From assembly GCF_003932755.1 (NCBI RefSeq), contig NZ_CP024202.1, positions 4,650,001-4,714,000 of the forward strand: 64,000 nt of DNA, written 5' to 3'. The DNA is from Methylomicrobium sp. wino1 (lineage in GTDB: Bacteria; Pseudomonadota; Gammaproteobacteria; Methylococcales; Methylomonadaceae). The position numbers were made by a program, and so were the translations under genes. The notes under the pieces are model-generated. The model saw nothing but the letters and a program-made list of their open reading frames with translations, was not told where the DNA came from and did no database searches. Shown in pieces: positions 10,761 through 59,144 of the stretch; the stretch's first letter is position 1, and every line of letters begins with the position of its first letter.

Positions 10761-11474
10761 CTAGTAAACCCAGTCGTTGTGTGCCAACGGCATACGATTC
10801 AACAAGTCCCGGCGCTCACGCCAGTCAGGAAGAAGCTTTTCCATATGGGCCTTAAACCGTTCATTATGTGTACGTTCAAGCAGATGCACCAACTCATGCA
10901 CTAGGATATATTCCAAACACTCGGGCGGCTTCTTCGCCAACTCTAAGTTCAGCCAAATACGCTTTGCTTGCGTGTTACAGCTGCCCCACTTGGTTTTCAT
11001 CCTCTTAACGCCCCAATCGGCAGCGGCTACGCCTATTTTGCTTTGCCAAACAGTCAATAAGTCAGCGATTCGTTTCTTTAACGCATCTCGGTAAAACGAG
11101 TTCAATGCCAAAGCCCTGTTTTCAGCCGTCGCAGACGCACTGACATACAGGTGTAACCAGCCACGCCCCAACTTGATTTCATGTTTACCGGAGCGCTCTA
11201 CGACATTGAGCCGATAGCGTTTTCCCCATAAGTAATGACATTCGCCACTCACCATTTCCCTGTCAGACTGGCGGGGTTGTTTGGCAAAGTCACTTTGCTG
11301 CTTTTTGATCCAGGGAATGCGACTGATCACCGCCATACGAATAGCCGTATCCGTCATGGATTCCGGCGCAGACACCCGCACGCGGCCATCGGGCGGCAAC
11401 ACGCTGATATGCAGATTTTTAATTGCCTTGCGATTCAACTGCATCGCAATCGAACCGATTTCAATCATTGCCAT
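10761..11474 (-). CDS. YgjP/COG1451-type zinc metallohydrolase (SprT-like)
   Basis: The 237-residue protein has the zinc motif VHELVHLLERTHNERF (HExxH with a downstream His) near residues 190-205 and the preceding KTKWGSCNTQAKRIWLN stretch typical of the YgjP-like family. The ATG at 11474 overlaps the hsdR stop as TGATG. Proteins of this family are frequently found beside hsdR genes of type I restriction systems and have been described as peptidase-like or, for YgjP, as a nucleotide pyrophosphatase. It is the last gene of the island. Its contribution to restriction is unknown. Confidence 0.88.
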   Translation of the reverse strand: MAMIEIGSIAMQLNRKAIKNLHISVLPPDGRVRVSAPESMTDTAIRMAVISRIPWIKKQQSDFAKQPRQSDREMVSGECHYLWGKRYRLNVVERSGKHEIKLGRGWLHLYVSASATAENRALALNSFYRDALKKRIADLLTVWQSKIGVAAADWGVKRMKTKWGSCNTQAKRIWLNLELAKKPPECLEYILVHELVHLLERTHNERFKAHMEKLLPDWRERRDLLNRMPLAHNDWVY

Positions 11475-14400
11475 CACTGATACTCTTTCTGCGCCTTGGC
11501 CAATTCCATTACGCCTTGAATATCCACGTTATAACCAGCCGTTTCTTCCCTGATAGCATTGGCAATTTCACGCTCTTTAAAACGATCACCCGCCCAATCA
11601 GCCTTTTTGGTGTAACGAATCGCAGTATCAATTTTCGTTGCCAATACTTCATCATTGCCAAAGTTATCGTAGAAAGCTCGCTTGGCATTGGTGTCTATGG
11701 AAGGCGGATAATTCGAAGTCGTTTGATCCGGGCGAATGACCTTGCGAGACAGCTCGCGAATTCGCTCCAGATATTCCTGATATTCAATGGCCTTTTGTCT
11801 GCGTAACTCAATCAATTCATCTAATAAAACAGACATCTGTTCGTAATATTTCGGATTAACAGGATTTTCATCCACGATGGTTTTACGCACATTGTTTTCG
11901 ATGGTTTCAGACATGGCTTCTCGGTTCTTGCGGATACTCTCCGGCAAAGCATCCAAGGCATCGGCGCCTTTTTCGACAATCAGCTCGATGAGCCCGAGTT
12001 CTTCAAAATCCATCAAGGTTTCGCTATCATCAGCCCGAATATACATATCTAACAGGTGGCGCATCGCAGGTTCAAAGCGTTTCATCTCCACTAAATCACC
12101 GCTGGCCAGTTTTACCTCGTCGCGAACCTTTTCAAAGTGGGCGACTTCCGACCGGATTGCCTCAACGTCTTGTGCAGAATATCCGGCATCGGCCATTTCG
12201 TTGGCGATATTGGCAAAGACTCGCAGCAGCTTGGCCACGTTCTGGTACAGAGTTAAACGAAGCGCCTCCTTTTCAGTCAATTCATCCTGATTCCATCCTG
12301 ACTCGCCACAAAAATAGTGAATGTAATCCTCGGTGTTCCGCGGGGCTTTTACCGGCTCACATAAAGCGCGTACCATTTCCAGCGCATTATCCAAATCGAG
12401 CTTGGCTTGCTCTAAACGATCTTTTAATAGCCCGGCGACATCCTCCTTGTCGTAGCCGTCAAATGCGCCCTCCGTATAATCCGATACCGCTTTATCCAAT
12501 GAGCGGAACAGGTCTTTGTAATCGATGATATAACCGTATTCTTTGTCATCACCATCCAAACGGTTTACCCGACAGATCGCCTGAAACAGGTTGTGATCGA
12601 CCATTTGCTTATCGATATACAAATACGTTGCCGAAGGCGCATCAAAGCCGGTTAAGAGCTTATCGACCACAACCAGCAAGCGCATTTGCCCTGGCTCATT
12701 CACGAAGCGTTTTATGACTTCCTTTTCGAACTCCCCCACGCGCCTGGCTGCTTGCTCTTCAGGTTGCTCGAAATAATCCGCCAACATCTTGCGGTAGGTG
12801 TCGTATTTAAACAACTTTTCCGTTAAGCCTTCACCGGTTTCTTCACCCTTAATGCCGGCAGCGGTAGGTTGGAAACTGGTAACAATGGCAATCTTGCCTG
12901 CCAAATCGGTTTGGCTGAACATCTCATAGGCCTTACAAACTTGATACACACTAGAGCACACCAACATGGCATTGCCGCGTCCGTCCATCAGGCGCGGCTT
13001 GGTATCCATGTCCAGTAGGATGTCATTCACAATCTGCTGCAAGCGCGATTTGCTGGACAGCACCTTTTGCATGGTGCCCCATTTCTGCTTGAGCTGTGTT
13101 TTGGCTAATCGAGACAGGCCACGGGTTTTCGCCTCAAACCATTCATCCACTTTCTTCTGGGATGTGATGTTTTGGTCTATGTCTCGCGCTTCGTAGCGCA
13201 AATCCAGTACCACGCCATCGGCCACGGCTTCGTCGAATTTATAGGTATGAATGTAAGGCCCAAACACCTCTACGGATTTTTTCTTGTCCTTTTTCATCAG
13301 CGGCGTACCGGTAAAGCCAACAAACATGGCCTGCGGCAGAATCGATTTCATCGCTTCGTGTAACTTGCCCGATTGAGTACGGTGACACTCATCGACAAAC
13401 ACAAATAGATCACCTTTGGCATTGAAATCCGATGGCAGAGACTGCTTTAACTCTGCAATAAACTCATCGGTCGCGGCATCGCTCTCGGAATCGGATTGCC
13501 TACCAAACTTGTGTACCAAAGAACACACCAACCAAGGATTGGGTTGATTGAGTGTCGCCACCAAGTCGGCACCGCTTTTGGTGCGATAAATATCTTCCTC
13601 AACGCCGGTGAAAACTTTTTCAATCTGCTCGTCGAGCTCAGTACGGTCGGTCACGATCAGCACGCGGGCATCTTTTACGTTTTCGCGTATCCATTTGGCC
13701 AGCCACACCATGGTGAGGCTTTTGCCCGAACCTTGAGTGTGCCAAATAATCCCGCCCTCACGCCTTGCTATATGGCGTTTTGCAGCTTCAATACCAAAGA
13801 ACTGATTATGGCGGCAGGTCTTTTTAATACCGGCATCGAAGACAATAAAATCGTGGATAATTTGCAGAAAGCGCGCTTTGTTACACACGCGGCTCAGATG
13901 GAAATCGAGTTTATGGCCATAAGCGTTTTCTATCTCTTCTTTCCACTCAAGGTAATGTTTTTCAGGAGTCTCAATCGTGCCGTAACGCAGGCCTTGAGTA
14001 TCGTTGCCTGCCATCACTAATTGCATGGTGGTGAAGAAATTGCGGACAAAATCTTTCTTTTGGTTATCGAGATTCTGGCGAATACCTTCTGAAACAGACA
14101 CAGAAGAGCGTTTCAATTCAATCACGCCCAGTGCGATACCGTTGACATATAGCACGATGTCGGGGCGCTTTTTGTTTTCGCCTTTTATTGAAACTTCTTC
14201 GGCAATCGCAAAATCGTTCGCTTCCGGGTTCTTCCAGTCAATCAGCCACACGGTTTCGTTTAGATGGCCTGCGCCTTCCTTGTCTTTCACACCGTAACGC
14301 AGCAAACGATAGACCTCTTTATTGGCGTAATAGAGTTTTTTACCTTCGCCCAGTGCAGCCGCCGTATCCAACTGGCGAATGGCACGATTAATGAGCGCCT

Positions 14401-14566
14401 CACTCACACCTCGTTTTTGCAGCCAATCGGTAAGAATGCCCACATCGATATTTTTATTATTGTTTCGATCGTGCCAGTCACCCAAATAGCGATAGCCCAG
14501 GTCATTTTGAAAGAACTGGACGATGCGGTTTTGGGTGATACGTTCTCGCTGGCCGACGTTGCTCAT
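11474..14566 (-). CDS. hsdR: Type I restriction enzyme R subunit (translocase/endonuclease)
   Basis: The gene encodes 1030 residues, the usual HsdR size. In order: an N-terminal nuclease domain with PDIVLYVNG...IELK (PD-(D/E)xK, about residues 135-155), an SF2 helicase with Walker A HTQGSGKS (about 277-284), the DECH box in FVDECHRTQSG, motif III GFTGTP, and a second RecA domain ending with TGFDAPSATYLYIDK. The C-terminus is helical, for docking on the M2S core. It cuts DNA after ATP-driven translocation when sites are unmethylated. It is separated from hsdS by fic and a small ORF, and its stop overlaps the next gene. The whole gene appears intact. Confidence 0.96.
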   Translation of the reverse strand: MSNVGQRERITQNRIVQFFQNDLGYRYLGDWHDRNNNKNIDVGILTDWLQKRGVSEALINRAIRQLDTAAALGEGKKLYYANKEVYRLLRYGVKDKEGAGHLNETVWLIDWKNPEANDFAIAEEVSIKGENKKRPDIVLYVNGIALGVIELKRSSVSVSEGIRQNLDNQKKDFVRNFFTTMQLVMAGNDTQGLRYGTIETPEKHYLEWKEEIENAYGHKLDFHLSRVCNKARFLQIIHDFIVFDAGIKKTCRHNQFFGIEAAKRHIARREGGIIWHTQGSGKSLTMVWLAKWIRENVKDARVLIVTDRTELDEQIEKVFTGVEEDIYRTKSGADLVATLNQPNPWLVCSLVHKFGRQSDSESDAATDEFIAELKQSLPSDFNAKGDLFVFVDECHRTQSGKLHEAMKSILPQAMFVGFTGTPLMKKDKKKSVEVFGPYIHTYKFDEAVADGVVLDLRYEARDIDQNITSQKKVDEWFEAKTRGLSRLAKTQLKQKWGTMQKVLSSKSRLQQIVNDILLDMDTKPRLMDGRGNAMLVCSSVYQVCKAYEMFSQTDLAGKIAIVTSFQPTAAGIKGEETGEGLTEKLFKYDTYRKMLADYFEQPEEQAARRVGEFEKEVIKRFVNEPGQMRLLVVVDKLLTGFDAPSATYLYIDKQMVDHNLFQAICRVNRLDGDDKEYGYIIDYKDLFRSLDKAVSDYTEGAFDGYDKEDVAGLLKDRLEQAKLDLDNALEMVRALCEPVKAPRNTEDYIHYFCGESGWNQDELTEKEALRLTLYQNVAKLLRVFANIANEMADAGYSAQDVEAIRSEVAHFEKVRDEVKLASGDLVEMKRFEPAMRHLLDMYIRADDSETLMDFEELGLIELIVEKGADALDALPESIRKNREAMSETIENNVRKTIVDENPVNPKYYEQMSVLLDELIELRRQKAIEYQEYLERIRELSRKVIRPDQTTSNYPPSIDTNAKRAFYDNFGNDEVLATKIDTAIRYTKKADWAGDRFKEREIANAIREETAGYNVDIQGVMELAKAQKEYQ

Positions 14567-14594
14567 ATCTTTGTCCTTGGCATTTCAATATTGC

Positions 14595-15749
14595 CTATTT
14601 CTCTTCTTGTAAAGATTCTGGAATAAACCCTTGGTTTGCTAGCGCCTTCACCACACCGCGAATTAAGTAGTTATTACTAAATCCAAAGGTATATTGACGA
14701 GCACCTTCGCTAATAGGTTGCAACATTTTACGTTCTACCAATTTTTTAATTTGGTAGGTGCGTTGCGTAGCTGTTAATTCGGGCATGGCTTTCGACAAAT
14801 CAGCGGCTTTGGCAACGCCCAGTTTTGCCGCTATTTGCAAAATAGATTCTTCTTGTTCGGTAATTAATTCACGAGATTTAGCATAGCTTAACGCGGGATT
14901 TAAAATTTTCGTTTGAAGATACGTAAAGTTGGTCAACTGATCCACTTTTTTAAGTTCGGCCAAAATACCTGTAAGTACATATCTGCACCAAGTTTCCTGG
15001 CCATCAGAAGAACCCGTATCTGCTTCGGCTAACATGGCATAGTATTTATCACGATCGTTACAAAATACTGCAGTGGGGTTGAGAACGCGCCCGCCTGTAC
15101 TGACGTTAAAACCATATTTCATTAGTAACGCATAGGTGAGTAGACGGACGACACGCCCATTACCGTTCCCAAAGGGATGAATCCAACCAAAGCGATGGTG
15201 CGCTAAGGCTACTTTGATCAGATCATACTTGGGCGCATCGGCCTGGTTAATAAATGCAACTAACTCCTGCATATAGCCAGGCACTTGTACTGCGTCGGGG
15301 GGAACATGTTCTGACTGAGCAATACGAACTGCCCCCGACCGATAAGCCCCAGGCGTTTTATCACCTTCACGATCTAAGTTATTCACCGTCATATCATGAA
15401 GTTCGCGGATAAAATGTTCAGTGATTGGCATGCAGGGCTTTATTGACGATTCAATATAGTCCATAGCCTTTTCAATATTTACCATTTCGCGCAAATGATC
15501 TGAAGGATCTGCACCCTCTAACTTACTTTCAACGTAATCCGCTAGAGTAGTATGATTGCCTTCAATACGCGCCGAACCCAAGCTTTCCAGCATGTGGAAA
15601 ATCGCTTTAAGCTGGAAAAACATGGGAGCTGGTGTACTGCCACTTAGTTGCAAGCGCCGCAAATGTTCAAGTTCAGTCAGAACATCGACCAAAGGAGAGT
15701 CAAAGGACGGGTTTAGCAAACATAAATCGTGGTGATTAAATTGAGGCAT
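14595..15749 (-). CDS. Fic family protein with N-terminal inhibitory motif
   Basis: The 384-residue protein has the Fic motif [12 protein letters not shown] (about residues 196-207), with catalytic His and the GNGR loop, but with Asn where most AMP-transferases have Asp/Glu. An N-terminal SARIEG segment (about 56-61) fits the (S/T)xxxE(G/N) inhibitory helix. The C-terminus (about 300-370) looks like a winged-helix DNA-binding domain ([18 protein letters not shown]). Such proteins transfer AMP or related groups to target proteins. It lies between hsdS and hsdR, 28 bp before hsdR on the same strand, so it appears to belong to the restriction operon. The target is unknown. Confidence 0.92.
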
Positions 15750-15925
15750 AACTCGAACTATCTATAATGGCGTTGATTGATTATCTTGAATTTACGCTAT
15801 AAAAAACTATAATGTCAATAAGTTATGTGTACAGTGATAAGTCCATTATCTATAATTGCTGCAAAAATTAAGTTAAATAAGCTAGACCGTGCAAGTAAAA
15901 AAACAGATATGGCTTTCAAACTTTA

Positions 15926-16252
15926 CTATTCGTCAAATGCAGTGCGAATTTGGGCTATTGCTTTCCATCGTGATGCCCTAGTTGACTTGTATGATGCTTC
16001 ATCACCAAGTTTCTCGCCCTTTTCACGTTTTGTGATTTTGTATTTGGTCCACATCCGCTCCTGGTACTGCTGCATTGTCGGAAACTCATCTCTATTTAGA
16101 GATGCTAAGTCCACCGACTCCCGATTGGCGCCACTAGGATGGGGGAGATAGGAAATTTTCTTTCCTCTTGCGCAGAGATAATCATGGACGGACATGTGAG
16201 ATATCTGAACTTTTTGGCATAGCGCTTTCTGGGCCTTGCGGCCTAGCACCAA
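15926..16252 (-). CDS. Hypothetical protein in the restriction operon
   Basis: The frame begins 20 bp after hsdS. The longest form uses a TTG at 16252 (108 residues); an ATG at 16195 gives 89 residues starting MSVHDYLCARGKK. Neither has a convincing ribosome site. The product is basic and has no domain I recognise; MWTKYKITKREKGEK and SRWKAIAQIRTAF could be helical. It could be a real small gene or the degraded end of a larger one. A 176-bp AT-rich gap separates it from fic. Confidence 0.35.
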   Translation of the reverse strand: MVLGRKAQKALCQKVQISHMSVHDYLCARGKKISYLPHPSGANRESVDLASLNRDEFPTMQQYQERMWTKYKITKREKGEKLGDEASYKSTRASRWKAIAQIRTAFDE

Positions 16253-16272
16253 AAGCGGCCACTAATAAGAAT

Positions 16273-17685
16273 TTAGCTAGCTTGTTGATCATGTGCAGTT
16301 TCCTTTGCATTCATTAATCGCGTCTTCCCCGTCAGCAGTTCTTGCATCATGCCTTGTTTGATTTGGCGGGTTTTGCCAAGGCGTTGTTCCAGCACCTGAA
16401 TCTCTTCGTCCATATCGGAGAGGATGGTGGCGATGGCGGTTTGTTCTTCTTTTAATGGAACTGGAATTTTATAATTTGCTATTGCTGGCAGTGGTACTCT
16501 TCGATGGCCTGCACTTCCAACCATCTCAGATTCGAGGGACTTCCTAAATACATCTCTATTACTCCAGTAATAAATGAATCTCGAATCCGAGTTATCAGTA
16601 GCTCGCAGAACATGAAATTCGGTACTACCAAAACCAATGTCAGTATGAAGTGTTTCAGCATGGCAACCTTTACCATTCTCAAAGCAGGGAGTTATCTTCG
16701 CAACCAAGACATCTCCACGCTCAAAATAAGTGAACCCACTTTTTACATTTTCAATGGTCATCAGATGTTGACTCGATAGTTGAGCCTGCTCTGTGACATC
16801 TTGCATGCCTACAAATGACACTAGGCTAGTCGGCTTGATGTGCTTCTTCGACACCGAGGGCTGAAATAGCGCTCCGAACCCAAGCACCTCCCAATCCTCC
16901 GGTATTTCCCCCAGTTCACTTGGCTTGGTGCCTTTTTTCGTACCATCTTCACGCAAAGCAAAGGGCGGCAGGCGGTTGCGGCCGGTGAGGAGTTGTTGCA
17001 TGGTGGCGGTTTTGATGGCCTGTTTTTTGGCGATCAGTTTTTCCAGCTCGCTGATTAGGGCATCGACATCGGATAGGGCATTGGCGATGGCGGTTTGTTC
17101 TTTTGTGCTTGGATACGGAATATGTAAAGCTAAAAAACTGCCCTTGGAAATATTTTTCATACTTCCACTTGTACCTGTGGCAGATTCCTTGATTTTTTGA
17201 GCATACACAGGATAGCTTAATAGGAATGCCAGCCACTTTGCATCTGTACCTTTTTCTTGGCTTAATCTCATCTGCCAAAGTCTGTCGGGTAAAAACAGAT
17301 TCGGAACATCTGCTGGAACAAAGCCAAGCTCCCCAACGAGAGCAGGTGTATTCATCCTACTCACTATAATTGAGCCTTTTCTAGCTAAGCACTTAGCTCG
17401 TTTTATATCTCTTGGAAGAATGGATTTTGCTTCAGATGCAAAAAAATAACCATTGCTGACACACGAGGTTTTAAGCACGTGACAACCATGGGGAAAGCCA
17501 TCAAGGCTATCAAGTGAATTGACGCTCACACCTGATTCTAAGGCAGCAACCAGACGATCTAGGTGGAGCACTTCCCAATCCTCCGGTATCACCCCAACTT
17601 CCGTCTGTTTATATCCAACGGGAATTGTGTTCGAAGTCGCTTCCGCCAGATACTTCGGACTCACTTCTGCTACCTGATTACTCAT
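16273..17685 (-). CDS. hsdS: Type I restriction enzyme S (specificity) subunit
   Basis: The start at 17685 (MSNQVAEVS) has a CAGGAG site and overlaps the end of the DUF1016 gene by 8 bp; an upstream in-frame start at 17754 would lie deep in that gene. The 470 residues contain two target recognition domains, each opening with IPEDWEV (about residues 34 and 260) and each closed by a conserved helix beginning KEQTAIANALSDVDALI or EEQTAIATILSDMDEEI. The two half-repeats bind the two halves of a bipartite target. With HsdM it forms the methyltransferase core. Both domains are intact, so the system should read a split site. Confidence 0.96.
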   Translation of the reverse strand: MSNQVAEVSPKYLAEATSNTIPVGYKQTEVGVIPEDWEVLHLDRLVAALESGVSVNSLDSLDGFPHGCHVLKTSCVSNGYFFASEAKSILPRDIKRAKCLARKGSIIVSRMNTPALVGELGFVPADVPNLFLPDRLWQMRLSQEKGTDAKWLAFLLSYPVYAQKIKESATGTSGSMKNISKGSFLALHIPYPSTKEQTAIANALSDVDALISELEKLIAKKQAIKTATMQQLLTGRNRLPPFALREDGTKKGTKPSELGEIPEDWEVLGFGALFQPSVSKKHIKPTSLVSFVGMQDVTEQAQLSSQHLMTIENVKSGFTYFERGDVLVAKITPCFENGKGCHAETLHTDIGFGSTEFHVLRATDNSDSRFIYYWSNRDVFRKSLESEMVGSAGHRRVPLPAIANYKIPVPLKEEQTAIATILSDMDEEIQVLEQRLGKTRQIKQGMMQELLTGKTRLMNAKETAHDQQAS

Positions 17686-18784
17686 CACCCGTCTCCTGTT
17701 GTGCCTGCAACGCCAGTTGCTCCATCGCTTGTTCCCGTTCGCGTTCCAGCTCACGCTTCAATTCTTCTTCGGTCGGCAAATAAAGTAAATACTTGGCGGC
17801 AAATAGTTGTTTCTGCTCCGCCAGTACCGAGTATTTCACAACCGCCTCGCTTTTCTCACTGCACAGCACCAATCCGATGGTGGGGTTATCGTCATCGCCT
17901 TTGCGTTGCTCGTCGTACAGGCGCACATAAGTGGTCGCTCTTTGGCATCCCTGCCACCGCGACATATCGTACATCCTGTACATATCCATCTGACCAATAT
18001 CCTGATGCTTGAGTTTGCCCAGTTTCAGATCCACCAGCAGAAAGCATTTGAGTTTGAAGTTGTAAAATACCAAGTCGATATAGAAGTCTTCATCGTCAAA
18101 GCGAATGCGTTGCTGGCGCTCGACAAAGGCACAGCCCTTGCCCAACTCCAATAAAAACTGTTGCAGGTTGCTGATAATGGCCTGTTCCAGTTCGCTTTCT
18201 TGGTAGGTTTTGTCTTGCAGGTTGAGGAAATCGAGAATATAAAGATCACGCAGATAGTCTTGTGCTGTTTCGGCCAATGGCTGGGTGTTAGCCTTGGCTT
18301 CTTGCTCGACCAATGCTCTGTCTTTGCTGGCCAGCAGGCGCTCGTAATAGAGCACGTTGATTTGGCGTTCTAATGCACGAGCACTCCAACTCTGGCTGAT
18401 CGCCTCTTTCAGATACCAATCCCTTGCGGCTGGATTGTCGATACGCATTAAGGCTCGGTAGTGTGTCCAGCTTAATTCACTACGCACTGCGTCGTGAATT
18501 GGAAAAGCTAGATAAAACTGGCGCATATTACGAAGATTCCCGACATCAAAGCCTTTGCCTAAGCGTTCTGTTAACTGTTGGGAGAGTTGCTGTAATTGTT
18601 GCTTGCCATAGGCAGCACGGCTTTCACCCTGTTGTTCGTGTTCGACAATCATGCGGCCAATCTCCCAGTAGCTTTGCACCATCGCGCTGTTAACCGATTG
18701 ACGAACTTGGCTGCGGGCTTGCTCAATCTGGCGGGCAATAGCATCCACCAGATGGTTTAATCCGGTAAAGTTTAATTCACTCAT
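17678..18784 (-). CDS. DUF1016 / YhcG-type PD-(D/E)xK nuclease family protein
   Basis: The ATG at 18784 overlaps the hsdM stop (ATGA) and has a GGAG site, giving 368 residues. The N-terminal half (about 10-170) is the DUF1016 helical region (YWEIGRMIVEHEQQG, GNLRNMRQFYLAFP, LSWTHYRALMRI, ARDWYLKEA). The C-terminal half has a nuclease-like core, FYIDLVFYNFKLKCFLLVDL followed by KLGK (D...DxK). The last 30 residues are a charged coiled coil. DUF1016 genes often lie inside type I restriction operons, where they may act as accessory nucleases. Here it sits between hsdM and hsdS with overlaps on both sides, so it is translated together with them. Activity is inferred. Confidence 0.93.
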   Translation of the reverse strand: MSELNFTGLNHLVDAIARQIEQARSQVRQSVNSAMVQSYWEIGRMIVEHEQQGESRAAYGKQQLQQLSQQLTERLGKGFDVGNLRNMRQFYLAFPIHDAVRSELSWTHYRALMRIDNPAARDWYLKEAISQSWSARALERQINVLYYERLLASKDRALVEQEAKANTQPLAETAQDYLRDLYILDFLNLQDKTYQESELEQAIISNLQQFLLELGKGCAFVERQQRIRFDDEDFYIDLVFYNFKLKCFLLVDLKLGKLKHQDIGQMDMYRMYDMSRWQGCQRATTYVRLYDEQRKGDDDNPTIGLVLCSEKSEAVVKYSVLAEQKQLFAAKYLLYLPTEEELKRELEREREQAMEQLALQAQQETGDE

Positions 18785-21201
18785 ACCGACCACTCCAAGC
18801 CCATGGCTTTTAGGTGCCCTGCTACTTTGTCGCTAAACTGCTCTACCGATTGACTGATGGCGGGCAGGGGTTCGCTGTAACGCTCTTCCAATTCTTTCAC
18901 TCGATTGGCCAGTTGCTGCGTCACTCGTTCGATTTCGGCAACAATGTTGCTTTCCAGTGTCGCCAGCCATTTATCTTCAACAATCAGGGCTTTGATCTCG
19001 TCGATGCTCAATTTGGGATACTGCTTAAACACGGCTAAATCGAGGGCATCTTGCGCCTCTTTCAGGGCTTTTTTAGACTCCGCTTCGGCATCGAACAGTT
19101 TCTTGGCCTTTTTAAGGGCGGCCTTTTCTTCCGGGTCTGCTGCCAGCTTCAAGCGTTCGGTAACCGTGGCTTTGGTGACTTTGTCTTTATCGTTCAGCGC
19201 TTCACTCAGCAGGCCATCTTCGCCGCCGTTTTCTTCCAAGTAGGTTTCCAGTTCTTGGCTGGCGCTATCGAGTGCGCCTTGCAGGGCATCCACTTGTTGC
19301 TGTTCGCTGGAGAAGAAACGGGCGATGATCAAGGCCGGTGGAATCAATTCGGCTTGGTATTTGGTTTTGTTAATCACCAAATCCGGCGTTTCTTTGAGTT
19401 TTTCGCCCTTTTTAACCGCCAATTCGCGCAGCACCTTACCTGCTGGCCAGTCATCCTGCACCAGTACATAGACATCGTCTTGCATGGTATCCGCCCAGTA
19501 ATCCATCAAAATCTGGTAAATGTCGTATTTGCTGAGCAGTGAGTTGCGGGAATAGCTTTCCAACAAGTCTTCACTAATGCGGTGAATGATCTGTTTTGGC
19601 TGTTCACCTGGTTCTATGGCTTTTAAGTTGGCGCGCTCAGACCAATCGGTAAAGGGCACAAGACTCGCTGCGGCAAAGCTTTTAAATTCCTGGTGATTGA
19701 GAATGGTGATTTTCACCTCGCTGGCTTTGACCAGTGCTTGGCAATAACCTTCGCGCACGGGTTCGAACAGGCTGGCGCGAATACTGGGGAAGACTTGCCA
19801 GTAACGTTCCAAAGCATCGATATCGACATTGGGAATACCGCCCTGCAAATGGGCACTTAAGTCATGCAGGTCTTCCGGCTCGCTGGAATCAATGTAACGC
19901 GGAATATTCAGGTTGTAATCATTCGCGGCGATTTCGCTTATGGGCACCATGCGGGAATAGCGTGGCTGCTCCAGTTGTTTGGTGAACACATCGACGATTT
20001 TGTGAATGTCCTGGCTGCGTAGACGGTTTTTATTGCCATCTTTCATAAAGCCTTTACTGGCATCGACCATAAAGATACCGCTACGGGCGTGAGCGTTTTC
20101 TTTATCAATCACAATAATGCAGGCAGGAATGCCGGTGCCGTAAAACAGATTGGCTGGCAAACCAATAATGCCTTTGATATAGCCTTGCTTGATAAGATTT
20201 TCACGAATGCGCGCTTCGGCATTGCCACGGAACAGCACCCCGTGCGGCAGAATCACCGCGCCTTTGCCGGTGCTTTTCAGGCTTTTGATAATGTGCAGCA
20301 AAAACGTGTAGTCGCCGTTTTTTTCCGGCGGAATACCCCAGGTAAAACGGTCGAATTCATCTTCTTGCGGGTTAATGCCGCTGGTCCAGTTTTTATTGGA
20401 GAACGGCGGGTTGGCGACAGCGAAGTCAAAGGTTTTAAGCCGGCCGTTGGCGTCTTTCCACTGCGGGTCGGAGAGGGTATTGCCTTTCCAGATTTTAGCG
20501 GTAGCGGTGTTGTGTAGAATCATGTTCATACGCGCCAAGGCACTGGTGGCATTGTCCATTTCCTGTCCGAAAATACTCAAACCACGCGGCGCTTCATCGC
20601 TGGCTTTTAACAATAGCGAGCCTGAGCCACAGGTGGGGTCGTAGACGGTTGCGTCTTGCGGCGTATCGCTATTGATACCAATGACTTTCGCGAGAATGCG
20701 CGAGACTTCCGACGGCGTATAAAACTGCCCTTTGGATTTGCCCGATTCGGTGGCGAAGTGGCGCATCAGGTATTCGTAGGCATCGCCAAGTAAGTCGTCA
20801 CCATCGGCACGGTTGTCGCCGAGGTTTAGCCCTTCAAAAATGCCGACCAACTTGCCTAAGCGATCGACCATTTCCTTGCCCTTACCGAGCTTGTCTTCAT
20901 CGTTAAAGTCGGCCACGTCGATGACGCCTTTGAGGTCGTTCTCTTCAGCAAGCGCACTGATAACCTTATTGATTTTATCGCCGATTTCTTTGTCACCTTT
21001 TAGCGCAACCATATCGTCGAAGCTGGCACCTTGCGGCACCACGATCATGCCGTAGGGGTCACCTTTGTACTTATCGGAGACATACTTCATAAACAGCAAG
21101 GTCAGCACATAGTCTTTGTACTGACTGGCATCCATACCGCCGCGCAGTTCGTCGCAGCTAGCCCAAAGGGAGGAGTAGAGTTCGGTTTTTTTAATGGCCA
21201 T
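18781..21201 (-). CDS. hsdM: Type I restriction enzyme M (DNA methyltransferase) subunit
   Basis: The gene encodes 806 residues. It has an N-terminal HsdM helical domain (YSSLWASCDELRGGMDASQY), an AdoMet-binding motif DPTCGSGSLLL (about residues 185-195) and the catalytic NPPF in FDFAVANPPFSNKNW, typical of N6-adenine methylation. After about residue 470 comes a long extension, partly coiled coil (about 620-780), making it longer than the common 500-residue HsdM. It is the first gene of the island and its stop overlaps the DUF1016 start. A 164-bp palindromic element begins 40 bp upstream, so the promoter lies in or beside that element. Confidence 0.96.
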   Translation of the reverse strand: MAIKKTELYSSLWASCDELRGGMDASQYKDYVLTLLFMKYVSDKYKGDPYGMIVVPQGASFDDMVALKGDKEIGDKINKVISALAEENDLKGVIDVADFNDEDKLGKGKEMVDRLGKLVGIFEGLNLGDNRADGDDLLGDAYEYLMRHFATESGKSKGQFYTPSEVSRILAKVIGINSDTPQDATVYDPTCGSGSLLLKASDEAPRGLSIFGQEMDNATSALARMNMILHNTATAKIWKGNTLSDPQWKDANGRLKTFDFAVANPPFSNKNWTSGINPQEDEFDRFTWGIPPEKNGDYTFLLHIIKSLKSTGKGAVILPHGVLFRGNAEARIRENLIKQGYIKGIIGLPANLFYGTGIPACIIVIDKENAHARSGIFMVDASKGFMKDGNKNRLRSQDIHKIVDVFTKQLEQPRYSRMVPISEIAANDYNLNIPRYIDSSEPEDLHDLSAHLQGGIPNVDIDALERYWQVFPSIRASLFEPVREGYCQALVKASEVKITILNHQEFKSFAAASLVPFTDWSERANLKAIEPGEQPKQIIHRISEDLLESYSRNSLLSKYDIYQILMDYWADTMQDDVYVLVQDDWPAGKVLRELAVKKGEKLKETPDLVINKTKYQAELIPPALIIARFFSSEQQQVDALQGALDSASQELETYLEENGGEDGLLSEALNDKDKVTKATVTERLKLAADPEEKAALKKAKKLFDAEAESKKALKEAQDALDLAVFKQYPKLSIDEIKALIVEDKWLATLESNIVAEIERVTQQLANRVKELEERYSEPLPAISQSVEQFSDKVAGHLKAMGLEWSV

Positions 21202-55343: not shown

Positions 55344-56240
55344 TTAAGCGACCGTCGAGCTCCTTCTAAATCCGATTAAACCGACTAAAGCCGAGCCCAT
55401 TAACCAAACTGCGGCTGGAACGGGAACGGGCTGAAGCGATGCCGATCTGACTGTTAAATCAACGTTGAAGCCTCTATTGGCTTCATCTAAATCATTATGA
55501 GTACCCAAATAATTATGAGCCGTCAGGTCAGGAGCGCGACCATCGCCGGCGGTGTAATAATCCCAAGCTTCGCTCGAAGTGCCGCCAACAGCTACGGAAT
55601 ACCAACCGGCGGTTAAGAAAATATCCGCAACAGAGATCGAATCGGCAGTCGTGTTCACACCGCCAGCAAAGTAGCCGGTAAATGCTTGCGTACCGCATTC
55701 TCCTCCATTATTACACATAGTAATATCGCCCAAGGCTCTGAACACCCCTTCTTTACCGAAATCGGCGGCATTATTGAATATTGCCCAATCGTGTGAACTG
55801 CCGGGCACTAAGTTGTGATCATTATGCGCACCCGCACTCGCATCATGATGCGCACCGGTTCCTTTGTAAATCGAAAAAGCCGGGTTCAAATCGGTCAACA
55901 AGTTAACCGGATCAATGAAATTGTCATTACCAGTATTGCGAACTTGATCGGTCGCCCAGACGTCGACATTAACAAATGAATCTTGCTCTAAATAGAATTT
56001 GGTAAAGCGAATGCGATGACTATTGCCCCAATCGGCATCCAAACCGTCGGCCCAACCGAAATTACCCGCTACCACACCCCTGTCGAAATGATAAGTGGTC
56101 GAGCCGTCACCGTTATTGGTCGAAGAATAGGCATCGGTTATTAAATCGCGGCCATTCCAGCCCACATGCGCCGAAGCTTCTTGTATCGAAACCAAGGCGG
56201 TAACGCCTATTGCCAATGCAGCTAATATAGTTTTATTCAT
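55344..56240 (-). CDS. VPLPA/PEP-CTERM secreted protein, N-terminal-His family, copy 1
   Basis: The ATG at 56240 gives 298 residues; the frame runs to 56303. The signal peptide (residues 1-24) ends ASA, so the mature protein starts HVGWNGRD. A second histidine lies in WGNSHRIRF (H75). The middle is Gly/Asn-rich and includes several more histidines (GTGAHHDASAGAHNDHN). The C-terminus has PVPVPAAVWLMGSALVGL then IGFRRS: a sorting motif, a TM helix and basic residues, recognised by an exosortase-type system. Two paralogues follow on the same strand. The fixed N-terminal His suggests metal binding, which is inference. Confidence 0.87.
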   Translation of the reverse strand: MNKTILAALAIGVTALVSIQEASAHVGWNGRDLITDAYSSTNNGDGSTTYHFDRGVVAGNFGWADGLDADWGNSHRIRFTKFYLEQDSFVNVDVWATDQVRNTGNDNFIDPVNLLTDLNPAFSIYKGTGAHHDASAGAHNDHNLVPGSSHDWAIFNNAADFGKEGVFRALGDITMCNNGGECGTQAFTGYFAGGVNTTADSISVADIFLTAGWYSVAVGGTSSEAWDYYTAGDGRAPDLTAHNYLGTHNDLDEANRGFNVDLTVRSASLQPVPVPAAVWLMGSALVGLIGFRRSSTVA

Positions 56241-56514
56241 AAGATTACCATTTTTGTTGTTAAGTACGAATAGAAAGAAATTTGCAAAACAACGATCCGG
56301 CAAGCCCCCCCGTTGACTTATAACAACGCCATGTTATTTCACGCTCTCTTACCTATTCATTTACCGTGCCAAGCAGATTTTTTTTCGCCCTTATTTTTTG
56401 CTACTACTTCACAAATCCAGAAAAACCAAGTAAATAGCTTGGAATTAATTTTAAGTTCGATTCTCGCCCCAAACTAACTCCAAAACTAATTCACAATATC
56501 GCTCAAAAATTTAC

Positions 56515-56549
56515 GTCATATGCCGTAGTTATGTGTGAAATGACACACA
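56515..56549. promoter_or_regulatory. Shared regulatory-like motif, copy 1
   Basis: GTCATATGCC (56515-56524), GTAGTTA, and ATGACACACA (56540-56549) repeat, with one base difference in spacing, a stronger inverted repeat at 59108-59144. It lies 275-310 bp upstream of VPLPA-CTERM copy 1. It may be an operator; no binding protein is known. Confidence 0.45.
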
Positions 56550-56586
56550 TTTTCTCTTTACGCCTCCTTGTTCCTCGTCATAGACA

Positions 56587-56765
56587 TTAATCTAAGCTTG
56601 GTATGCTGCGCATCGCGCACCTTTTATTCAGGATTTTTACAAAAACGTTAAAACACACCAAACGGCATTCCCGGGTAAAGGGTGCGCGGTGCGACACCCG
56701 TCGAATTAGAGAGAAGGTCGGCGGTGGGGCGGATTTTTGGTCCATGTAAAATCCGGCCCCACTCC
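56587..56765. repeat. Degenerate repeats in the gap between VPLPA-CTERM copies 1 and 2
   Basis: A CTGCGCATCGCGCACC unit (about 56606-56622) and a degenerate family C stretch (GGTCGGCGGTGGGGCGGATT, about 56716) fill this part. The rest of 56241-56807 holds the regulatory-like motif and A/T-rich DNA with no gene. Confidence 0.5.
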
Positions 56766-56807
56766 CAATCACATCAGGCGTAGGATTATATCAACGCCAG
56801 ATCGCAA

Positions 56808-57560
56808 TTAAACAGCTAGAGAACGCTTTCTGAAAGCCCCCAAACCGACCAAGCCCGCTCCCATTAGCCAAATCGCTGCTGGCAAGGGAACTGGCGCGAC
56901 GGTCAAACTAATATCGAAACCTCGGCTGGCATTATCTGCATCAAATCGATTAAAGGCACCACAAGGCTCTCTTTCATAACACGTTCCGCCAATCGCAACG
57001 GAATAAATGCCGGCTTCAAGCGCACCCATCCATGAAACAGCCGTCGCCAAGCCGTCTATTTCGCCGGCATGACCGATGTAATGGATTGTGTCGACTTCAC
57101 CATCATCGTTACCCATAGTAGTCGTTCCCTGTCCGTTCCAGCCCCCTGTTTTCCCTGCCGGCGGAGGAAATGCATCCTCATAGGCTTCATCAGGCAAAAC
57201 ACCGTTATAAAGCGAGAATCCCGGGGTTAAATCCCCTACTCGCAAAGGAAAAGTATTGCCGCCTATCGTGATAAAAGTATCTTGATAATCGGACTCGACA
57301 TGTATTTTGACATTCGATGATTCAGTCAATGCGAACTGTGCCCAAGCGCCTTGATGGCTATCGCCCCAATCTTCGTCCATCGCATCGGCCCATCCGTAGT
57401 TGCTCGATACGATACTATTGGCCGAATAAATATGCTTATCGCCGTCGATAACCGGCGTTAAATTCGTCAAATTGATCCAGTTGATATGCGCAGACGCTTG
57501 CTGGGTTGGAAGAAAACCGACCGCAGCCGCACAGACCATTGTCGGCAACAATTTTTTCAT
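56808..57560 (-). CDS. VPLPA/PEP-CTERM secreted protein, N-terminal-His family, copy 2
   Basis: The 250-residue precursor has a signal peptide (residues 1-24) ending ASA, so the mature form begins HINWINLTN. The second conserved histidine is in WGDSHQGAW (H69), preceded by NYGWADAMDEDW as in copy 1 (NFGWADGLDADW). Two cysteines lie in GGTCYEREPCG. The C-terminal anchor is PVPLPAAIWLMGAGLVGL then GAFRKRS. A FSLYNG segment and a GVLPDEAYEDAF loop match copy 3 (FSLYKG, GLVPLSAFENANF). It should be secreted and processed at the surface. Function unknown. Confidence 0.86.
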   Translation of the reverse strand: MKKLLPTMVCAAAVGFLPTQQASAHINWINLTNLTPVIDGDKHIYSANSIVSSNYGWADAMDEDWGDSHQGAWAQFALTESSNVKIHVESDYQDTFITIGGNTFPLRVGDLTPGFSLYNGVLPDEAYEDAFPPPAGKTGGWNGQGTTTMGNDDGEVDTIHYIGHAGEIDGLATAVSWMGALEAGIYSVAIGGTCYEREPCGAFNRFDADNASRGFDISLTVAPVPLPAAIWLMGAGLVGLGAFRKRSLAV

Positions 57561-57914
57561 AGTTTTTCCTCAAAATAGACGTTAATACAAAAGCCTACAA
57601 ATCGATAACAGCCATGTAAAGTAATGAAATAAATGAACAACGATTTTTCTTCTGTCAGAGTGGATTCCGGCAGTCCATGTCGGAATGAAGGACTTTAAAG
57701 CAAGCCTATAAAAGCTCGTTCCTTATCCGGTTTTACGCCGACATCCGCCTCATCAACCGCCCTTTCGCGTTCAATTCAATAAGCCTCTTCCGGTATCACC
57801 AAGAAGCGATGTCAGACATCCTTGTCCGGGGATACCGCTCCCCAACGGTATTGATTAACTGAAAACCAGACCGGAAACCGACCTGGGTTTAATTGATTCG
57901 ATTCAAGAATTGAA
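57561..57914. other. Intergenic region between VPLPA-CTERM copies 2 and 3
   Basis: No gene is seen. ACATCCTTGTCCGGGGATAC (about 57808-57830) resembles ACATCCTTGTCCGGGGGATG downstream of copy 1 (about 55250), so each of these genes is followed by a related non-coding stretch. No copy of the shared upstream motif occurs here. Confidence 0.5.
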
Positions 57915-58631
57915 TCAAGCGGCGATAGCGCGTTTTCTCATGCCGATCAAGCCGACCAAAGCTGAACCCATCAACCAGACTGCGGCGGGAACTGGGACGG
58001 GCTGGACGCTAGCAATTACACCGTAAGCTCCTGCACCGATTCCGTCAGCGGCCGCACCACCGACTACCAGTGAATATACGCCGGCAAGTAAAAAGATATT
58101 GCTAAGCGATTCGGTTGCGCCTACGCCATTATCGTTAACGGAAGTAATAAATTCAATCGTGTTAATAACACCGCTGTTATTACCCATCGTGGTATCGCCA
58201 ACCGCATTAAACAACCCATTATTCCCGTCAGCAACCGGCCATACAGGCTCGCCTTCAAAATTCGCGTTTTCGAAAGCCGATAGCGGCACAAGTCCTTTGT
58301 ACAAACTAAAACCGACATCGAGATCGGCTAAAACAGGAAAGGTATTGCCGGAATCATCACCTGCGCTATTGTAGGTCGGATAGGTTCCCGGGCCTGCATT
58401 TTCGACGCTGATGTTTACATTAGAATCCTGCTCCAACGTAAAGCTATACCAGCGAACAGTATGACTATCGGCCAAAGTGGGTTGAGTCCCTTGATACCAG
58501 CCATCGTCGTAACCGACTGACGCGACAAACGGATTCAAGTTATCCAGATTTCTATAACCCACATGGGCGTAAGCTTGACTACCTAACAATAACCCTACAA
58601 ATACAACAACAGACGATATTATTTTTTTCAT
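57915..58631 (-). CDS. VPLPA/PEP-CTERM secreted protein, N-terminal-His family, copy 3
   Basis: The 238-residue precursor has a signal peptide (residues 1-22) ending AYA, so the mature form begins HVGYRNLDN. The second conserved histidine is in LADSHTVRWYSF (H57). A shared LEQDSNVNISVE strand matches copy 1 (LEQDSFVNVDVW). The C-terminal anchor is PVPVPAAVWLMGSALVGL then IGMRKRA. AGGAC forms a fair ribosome site. Its 818-bp upstream region holds the best copy of the shared inverted-repeat motif. Function unknown; surface location is expected from the sorting signal. Confidence 0.86.
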   Translation of the reverse strand: MKKIISSVVVFVGLLLGSQAYAHVGYRNLDNLNPFVASVGYDDGWYQGTQPTLADSHTVRWYSFTLEQDSNVNISVENAGPGTYPTYNSAGDDSGNTFPVLADLDVGFSLYKGLVPLSAFENANFEGEPVWPVADGNNGLFNAVGDTTMGNNSGVINTIEFITSVNDNGVGATESLSNIFLLAGVYSLVVGGAAADGIGAGAYGVIASVQPVPVPAAVWLMGSALVGLIGMRKRAIAA

Positions 58632-59107: not shown

Positions 59108-59144
59108 TGTGTCATATGCCACAGTTACTGCGGCATATGACACA
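59108..59144. promoter_or_regulatory. Inverted repeat, shared regulatory-like motif, copy 2
   Basis: TGTGTCATATGCC (59108-59120) and GGCATATGACACA (59132-59144) are exact 13-bp inverted copies with an 11-bp spacer (ACAGTTACTGC). A related site precedes VPLPA-CTERM copy 1. Here it lies about 480-510 bp upstream of copy 3. The rest of 58632-59358 is A/T-rich with no supported gene. Confidence 0.55.

Follow-up and report, generated by a model that had tools for sequence, protein, structure and literature searches.

How do methanotrophs that have neither methanobactin nor CorA collect copper for their particulate methane monooxygenase? The question is raised by three neighboring genes, here called A, B and C, in a stretch of 64,000 nucleotides (nt) of the Methylomicrobium sp. 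wino1 genome (contig NZ_CP024202.1, positions 4,650,001 to 4,714,000; the window, in what follows). They encode paralogous VPLPA-CTERM proteins with a predicted mature N-terminal histidine (H1) and a second conserved histidine (H45 in the numbering of B). The surface copper proteins of this group of bacteria with solved structures are CorA and MopE, and the analysis names a candidate surface family, found in 39 of 311 Methylococcales genomes, that is tied to them. There is good support for regarding it as a distant branch related to the CorA/MopE copper(I) proteins. What we infer is that it binds copper, that H1 takes part and that the proteins serve in copper acquisition, together with the meeting of H1 and H45 in the fold. 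The reading that we favor, with a probability of about 0.5, is that the family is a branch of CorA that does without kynurenine, and that its mature N-terminal His joins the equivalent of CorA His64 to bind copper at the cell surface in a site resembling a histidine brace.

Three paralogous genes with a predicted N-terminal histidine

The three genes and the features on which the argument depends are as follows.

55344..56240, minus strand: gene A, a VPLPA-CTERM protein of 298 amino acids (aa), with its ATG at 56240
56166-56168 and 56016-56018, minus strand: codons of H1 (mature HVGW) and of the second His (in GNSH) of A
55347..55427, minus strand: VPLPA-CTERM tail of A (TIGR03370, E value 2.9e-4, under the curated cut-off)
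56808..57560, minus strand: gene B, a VPLPA-CTERM protein of 250 aa
57486-57488 and 57354-57356, minus strand: codons of H1 (mature HINW) and of the second His (in GDSH) of B
56811..56891, minus strand: VPLPA-CTERM tail of B (TIGR03370, E 6.4e-8, over the curated cut-off)
57915..58631, minus strand: gene C, a VPLPA-CTERM protein of 238 aa
58563-58565 and 58461-58463, minus strand: codons of H1 (mature HVGY) and of the second His (in ADSH) of C
57918..57998, minus strand: VPLPA-CTERM tail of C (TIGR03370, E 5.8e-4, under the curated cut-off)

These are separate genes with gaps of ~350 to 570 nt, and identity with the first paralogue is 38 and 41%. An earlier note on this DNA had claimed that each signal peptide ends in an AxA site directly before His and that a second Ser-His follows 34 to 50 residues later. 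Both points hold, since the signal peptides end in ASA (A), ASA (B) and AYA (C) before HVGW, HINW and HVGY, and in the mature proteins the second His stands at residue 51, 45 and 35, respectively, a spacing from H1 of 50, 44 and 34 residues. The same note suggested that they may be surface proteins, which agrees with the predicted signal peptide, the VPLPA tail and the three exosortase-family genes over cut-off in the genome. Pfam and NCBIfam matched nothing but the tail in A, B and C, and a search of PDB sequences with these proteins gave no credible match.

The listed open reading frame (ORF) of A extends upstream to a TTG at 56303. In A there is also a third His, within SSHDW, as well as an insert rich in His; where the optional third His would be, B has Tyr (position 103) and C has Phe. 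The insert, GTGAHHDASAGAHNDHNLVPGSSHDW, follows FSIYKG and is a candidate for an extra metal site; it is shared by the orthologue of A in G005, which has SSFDW instead of SSHDW.

Relationship to CorA and MopE

CorA of Methylomicrobium album BG8 is a cell-surface protein that is repressed by copper. Its single copper(I) is held by His64 and His114, with a water and kynurenine 62 (at a distance of 2.9 Å) also at the site (PMC3912023). We used Pfam PF18252 (Cu_bind_CorA) and PDB 4bz4 as its reference, and built a CorA profile from 8 of 10 ORFs of relatives, leaving out L205 (partial) and L208 (kept as a bridge; see below). Comparison by hhalign of 40 aligned family members with these sequences gave an E value of 3.3e-4 (probability 38) and, in a repeat, 7.2e-5 (probability 63, score 36.1), with control scores of at most 19.2 in 100 column shuffles and of 12.5 for a reversed profile. 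The alignment is ungapped from W33 on, through NYGWADAMDEDWGDSHQGAWAQF in the family and AYSWYNLSMGYLGWTHHSNWGFV in CorA. It places the His of the DSH motif opposite the copper ligand His64 and Asp43 opposite Trp62, the residue that becomes kynurenine, with Trp33 opposite the other invariant Trp of CorA. A placement by eye of the conserved GW (W33) on Kyn62 was rejected, as hhalign puts Asp43 there.

Two further lines of sequence comparison point to the same relationship. The bridge ORF L208 of G218, a VPLPA-CTERM protein with LGWTHTSNW, matched the CorA profile at 6.5e-11, the family profile at 1e-7 and PF18252 at 5.6e-8 (over cut-off), and in its alignments the DSH His again stands opposite CorA His64. 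In G096, an ORF of 848 aa (L178:16685-19228, minus strand) joins a MopE domain (4e-88) to a C-terminal GWNH domain and matched the family profile at 4.4e-10 over the whole protein. Four sister GWNH ORFs adjoin it (family profile 3.4e-12, 2.5e-11, 3.6e-11 and 5.1e-7); the GWNH ORF of 753 aa at this locus, 2.5e-11 without filters, was missed by the 40-member profile at default filters. The bridge ORF itself (L208:1222-1995, plus strand) shows that exosortase-anchored relatives of CorA exist, none of which is named in the few papers that our searches found.

Predicted folds pointed to the same proteins. AlphaFold2 models of mature B (predicted local distance difference test [pLDDT] 63.6, predicted template modeling score [pTM] 0.69) and mature C (pLDDT 59.1, pTM 0.66) were compared by Foldseek with 350,542 PDB chains. 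The first three matches of B were CorA 4bz4_D (8.2e-5), CorA 4bz4_A (1.7e-4) and MopE 2vov (3.2e-4), and the first four of C were three CorA chains and MopE, from 2.9e-4 to 8.6e-4. Structures of PPC and CBM6 domains followed at lower ranks, and they call for another explanation to be weighed, namely, that the family is a PPC-like structural or glycan-binding surface domain and no copper protein, its histidines binding calcium or zinc or holding the fold. Such a role would suit the fusion of several members to repeat regions and the weak match to PF04151 in 2 of the 40 members (best E 0.0015), and a role in the matrix is commonly assumed for many PEP/VPLPA-CTERM proteins. However, in both models the PPC and CBM folds rank below CorA and MopE, the alignment sets the invariant DSH His on a proven copper ligand, and the family is nearly confined to a methanotroph order. 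We regard this explanation as improbable.

Conservation of the two histidines

The family was searched for in 1764 ORFs of the fetched loci with an 18-member profile and a second profile trimmed to hold neither histidine. The seeds of both profiles carried H1, so H1-bearing members were favored. The 94 matches correspond to 80 non-redundant ORFs, some of them close copies, as they form only 68 clusters at 50% shared 4-mers. AxA followed by H, the predicted cleavage site, is present in 78 of the 80, and these 78 also have [D/N/E][S/T/N]H, which the first pattern caught in 77 and reading in one more (NNH). Loss of either His among homologues, a possibility raised in the earlier note, was looked for, and both histidines proved to be kept in these 78 ORFs; the two without either feature are a fragment truncated where its locus ends and L035, which falls in a GWNH side group. 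Across the family, the second His ranges from mature position 35 to 126.

A simple cleavage rule cut exactly at H in 65 of the 80 ORFs; among the other 15, AxA before H was found further on (up to ~28 residues) in 13 and was missing in 2. For L144:7055-9541, L127:1387-2280, L133, L126 and L024 the automatic choice of H1 fell on an inner AH, and AxA before H was confirmed by reading. AxA before H, at the predicted cleavage point or adjoining it, is also seen in 10 of 95 non-family VPLPA/PEP-CTERM ORFs of these loci (Fisher p ~1e-35 for family versus non-family, with rows that are not independent). The 40-member alignment, hand-picked from members bearing AxA-H and with a mean column identity of 21%, is invariant at H1, H45, Y162 and four glycines; the 38 of 78 members omitted from it are chiefly near copies and long or fused proteins. 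Members fused to long repeat regions (~690 to 830 aa) include L144:7055-9541, L146:6238-8352 and L150:6693-8756, all on the plus strand.

Two other His columns are variable, position 103 (His in 25 of the 40 members) and position 140 (22 of 40). An equivalence of His140 with MopE His203 was rejected, since by eye the His140 strand comes after the His203 loop. Column 103 is the nearest to CorA His114, within ~3 profile columns by hhalign, and the correspondence is uncertain by about that much. These columns would give a CorA-like copper protein its ligands without any brace, the DSH His and the optional His103 or His140 binding copper and H1 being kept for secretion, folding or contact with a partner; CorA and MopE, after all, need no N-terminal His. 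Against this, H1 is invariant in the alignment, His103 is missing in B and C and His140 in A and C, and C, which has neither, would be left with its His35 alone. In addition, two other H1-bearing VPLPA groups include some members without H1. We consider a brace-free site unlikely.

A proposed copper site without kynurenine

At the position of the CorA kynurenine the family has Asp (31 of 40 members) or Asn (9 of 40), and the presumed maker of kynurenine is usually not found beside its genes. In 29 of 30 CorA loci returned, a CXXCH ORF lies beside corA on the same strand, 19 of 30 have two CXXCH within the 1.5-kilobase (kb) flank, and all five such ORFs tested in Pfam were CCP_MauG. In the 1.5-kb flanks of the short family loci (36 loci at 31 distinct places), and in the whole window, no ORF with two CXXCH was found; one of the short loci has a single-CXXCH ORF on the opposite strand. 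A single-CXXCH ORF is present at five of 28 longer family loci, and an ORF with two at one (in G006). In the genus of the window the two families occupy different genomes: CorA alone is found in G002, G003 and G004, the family alone in G000 (the genome of the window) and G005, and neither in G001 (79% complete). Over the whole order, 53 genomes with a clear CorA (E <1e-20) and 34 with a clear family member (E <1e-15) overlap in 2, G084 and G117.

Taken together, the favored reading would work as follows. Signal peptidase would expose His1, and the exosortase-type VPLPA tail would hold the protein at the cell surface. The beta-sandwich would place the His of [D/N]SH where CorA has His64, while CorA Trp62, which is oxidized to kynurenine beside the copper, would be replaced by Asp or Asn, the proposed diheme maker being usually absent from the locus. 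The copper ligands would then be the His64 equivalent together with both the imidazole and the amino group of His1; Asp43 would lie nearby, as would a third His in some members. This third His, near the position of CorA His114, is present in most aligned relatives and in A and would be dispensable. With three nitrogens supplied by the brace, the second CorA ligand could be dispensed with, in agreement with its absence from B and C. The function might be copper capture at the cell surface under low supply, the task of CorA, in species without CorA. The predicted change at the copper site is, in short, a histidine in at the N terminus and a kynurenine out.

A possible, although tentative, extension is that this branch of CorA/MopE swapped kynurenine and its diheme maker for a self-made ligand, the mature N-terminal His, giving a new brace on a surface-anchored fold for which none is known, and that it replaces CorA even within one genus. 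If so, the histidine brace would have an independent origin here and the kynurenine of CorA and MopE would be replaceable. None of the papers covered by our literature searches pairs either the histidine brace or MopE with PEP-CTERM, or VPLPA-CTERM with Methylomonas.

The copper connection of the earlier note, which had proposed a surface copper protein with a brace, is retained in this form by the relationship to CorA and MopE; no match was found to the brace proteins that it named as known, lytic polysaccharide monooxygenases (LPMOs), CopC and PmoB. Membership in the LPMO or CopC families was rejected, as there was no match in Pfam, NCBIfam or PDB sequences, and any brace in these proteins would have newly arisen, because the fold matched is the CorA/MopE beta-sandwich. 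The same results bear on the idea of a secreted LPMO-like copper enzyme whose brace oxidizes surface or extracellular polymers. A predicted N-terminal His after secretion and a second His do recall LPMOs (PMC10952591, PMC8424229). The proteins that the fold matches are, in the portions of the reports at hand, described as handling copper and not as catalysts, and with no LPMO match in any of these databases, we consider such an enzyme very improbable.

Several observations weigh against the reading that we favor. The comparison with three MopE sequences by hhalign gave only E 2e-3 (probability 13.5), and none of the 40 members matched PF18252 at E 0.1, so the link with CorA is a distant one. 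Both models are weak and worst at the N terminus (residues 1 to 10 with pLDDT 27 in C and 54 in B). Query template modeling scores to CorA and MopE are 0.42 to 0.51, with root mean square deviations of 6 to 11 Å, and the two models are not independent because they were built from the same eight-sequence alignment. In G006 a CCP_MauG gene (L101:8730-10937, minus strand) shares its strand with a family gene and precedes it by 0.85 kb, and a scan of 1.5 kb can miss upstream genes, so the absence of the partner is a rule seen and not a proven law. The role of the peroxidase is itself uncertain, because loss of its gene is reported not to have harmed growth of M. alcaliphilum (PMC3912023). Both profiles match in 6 of the 311 genomes of the order, the anticorrelation of CorA and family is weak (Fisher p 0.09, order-wide) and 272 of the 311 genomes lack the family. 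Finally, of 16 listed VPLPA ORFs in which GWxH is retained, 6 have H1, and these, with the 10 of 95 other VPLPA/PEP-CTERM ORFs mentioned above, indicate that gain of H1 and loss of Trp are not mutually tied and that the swap is no strict rule.

Further upstream in G006 there is also a VPLPA protein with WGHAGRW (L101:12271-13242), which may be the real partner of CCP_MauG.

Distribution

Genes A, B and C are the only full-length members in their own genome. This genome also encodes, in the region of G000:C1:2132635, a VPLPA-CTERM protein with mature HVMY and a CorA-like GWAH (L005:1468-2397, minus strand), some look-alikes of which in other genomes keep GWxH without H1. The count of 39 Methylococcales genomes was obtained at E 1e-6 and includes that of the window; in five of the 39 (G203, G250, G255, G096 and G123) the best family E value is weaker than 1e-15. 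Up to eight family places were seen per genome, often clustered. Samples of the class and of the phylum gave 2 of 369 and 2 of 398 genomes, respectively, with the genome of the window counted in each and G631 as the other in both. The member in G631 (G631:C1:2195290-2195859, L133), the sole one outside Methylococcales in the sampled genomes, has a PEP tail and not a VPLPA tail. A scan of genome contigs, the query of which partly caught the tail motif, returned 43 loci, with family members at L050, L051 and L052. No member was found in viral contigs, nor in plasmids searched with protein C.

Upstream palindromes and neighboring genes

Two candidate regulatory sequences lie within and beside the cluster.

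56515..56549: operator-like half palindrome, GTCATATGCCGTAGTTA..., ~275 nt upstream of A
59109..59143: palindrome GTGTCATATGCC-N11-GGCATATGACAC, ~480 nt upstream of C

The genome has a single copy of the full palindrome, and a stretch closely similar to the half palindrome is found ~280 nt upstream of the orthologue of A in G005 (L099). The A-B-C cluster is the one place in the genome with sites that differ from GTCATATGCCRYAGTTA at no more than one position, which suggests that the cluster may have a local regulator. A wider palindrome regulon was rejected, with three sites at two mismatches outside the cluster against four for a reversed control. The palindromes give a handle for expression tests.

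The cluster is flanked by a fused MFS/spermidine-synthase gene and an apbE gene, and no known copper gene was found among the 22 other window proteins run through Pfam. Elsewhere in the window (10761-21201) are the type I restriction-modification genes hsdR, hsdS and hsdM, between which lie genes for a Fic protein and a YhcG/DUF1016 nuclease.

Comparison with known systems

PPC domains (PF04151) share with the family a general strand layout and an LxxGxYxxxxGG-type motif. The domain is matched, as noted, by just two members and weakly, and it is not known to have a conserved H1 or DSH. The histidine-brace proteins (LPMOs, CopC, PmoB and PmoF1) are alike in having a mature N-terminal His after signal cleavage and a second His ligand, while YcnI, a mono-His brace, has the mature N-terminal His and no second His ligand. 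They differ in that no sequence match was found between them and the family, in which the brace geometry is putative.

MopE and MopE* of Methylococcus capsulatus Bath (PDB 2vov) probably belong to the same fold group. The His of MopE GWTH, His132 in a numbering that fits the chain, corresponds to the DSH His, and the second His ligand is His203. MopE AHPGFILFW corresponds to LxPxFSLY in the family. MopE is larger and secreted, its profile match to the family is weak (E 2e-3), and it bears a kynurenine, at Trp130 (PMC3423442).

CorA differs in having Trp/Kyn62 where the family has Asp or Asn, and in lacking the predicted mature His1 and the VPLPA tail. Its diheme peroxidase (CorB) usually has no adjacent counterpart in the family (G006 being the exception), its His114 is not kept in B and C, and there is no direct Pfam match. 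CorA is a methanotroph surface protein of ~200 aa with a beta-sandwich, as the family is predicted to be, and it is the best fold match of both models. His64 stands opposite the DSH His of the family and W33 opposite an invariant Trp of the CorA alignment, and the distance from the mature N terminus to this Trp is 22 residues in C and 24 in CorA.

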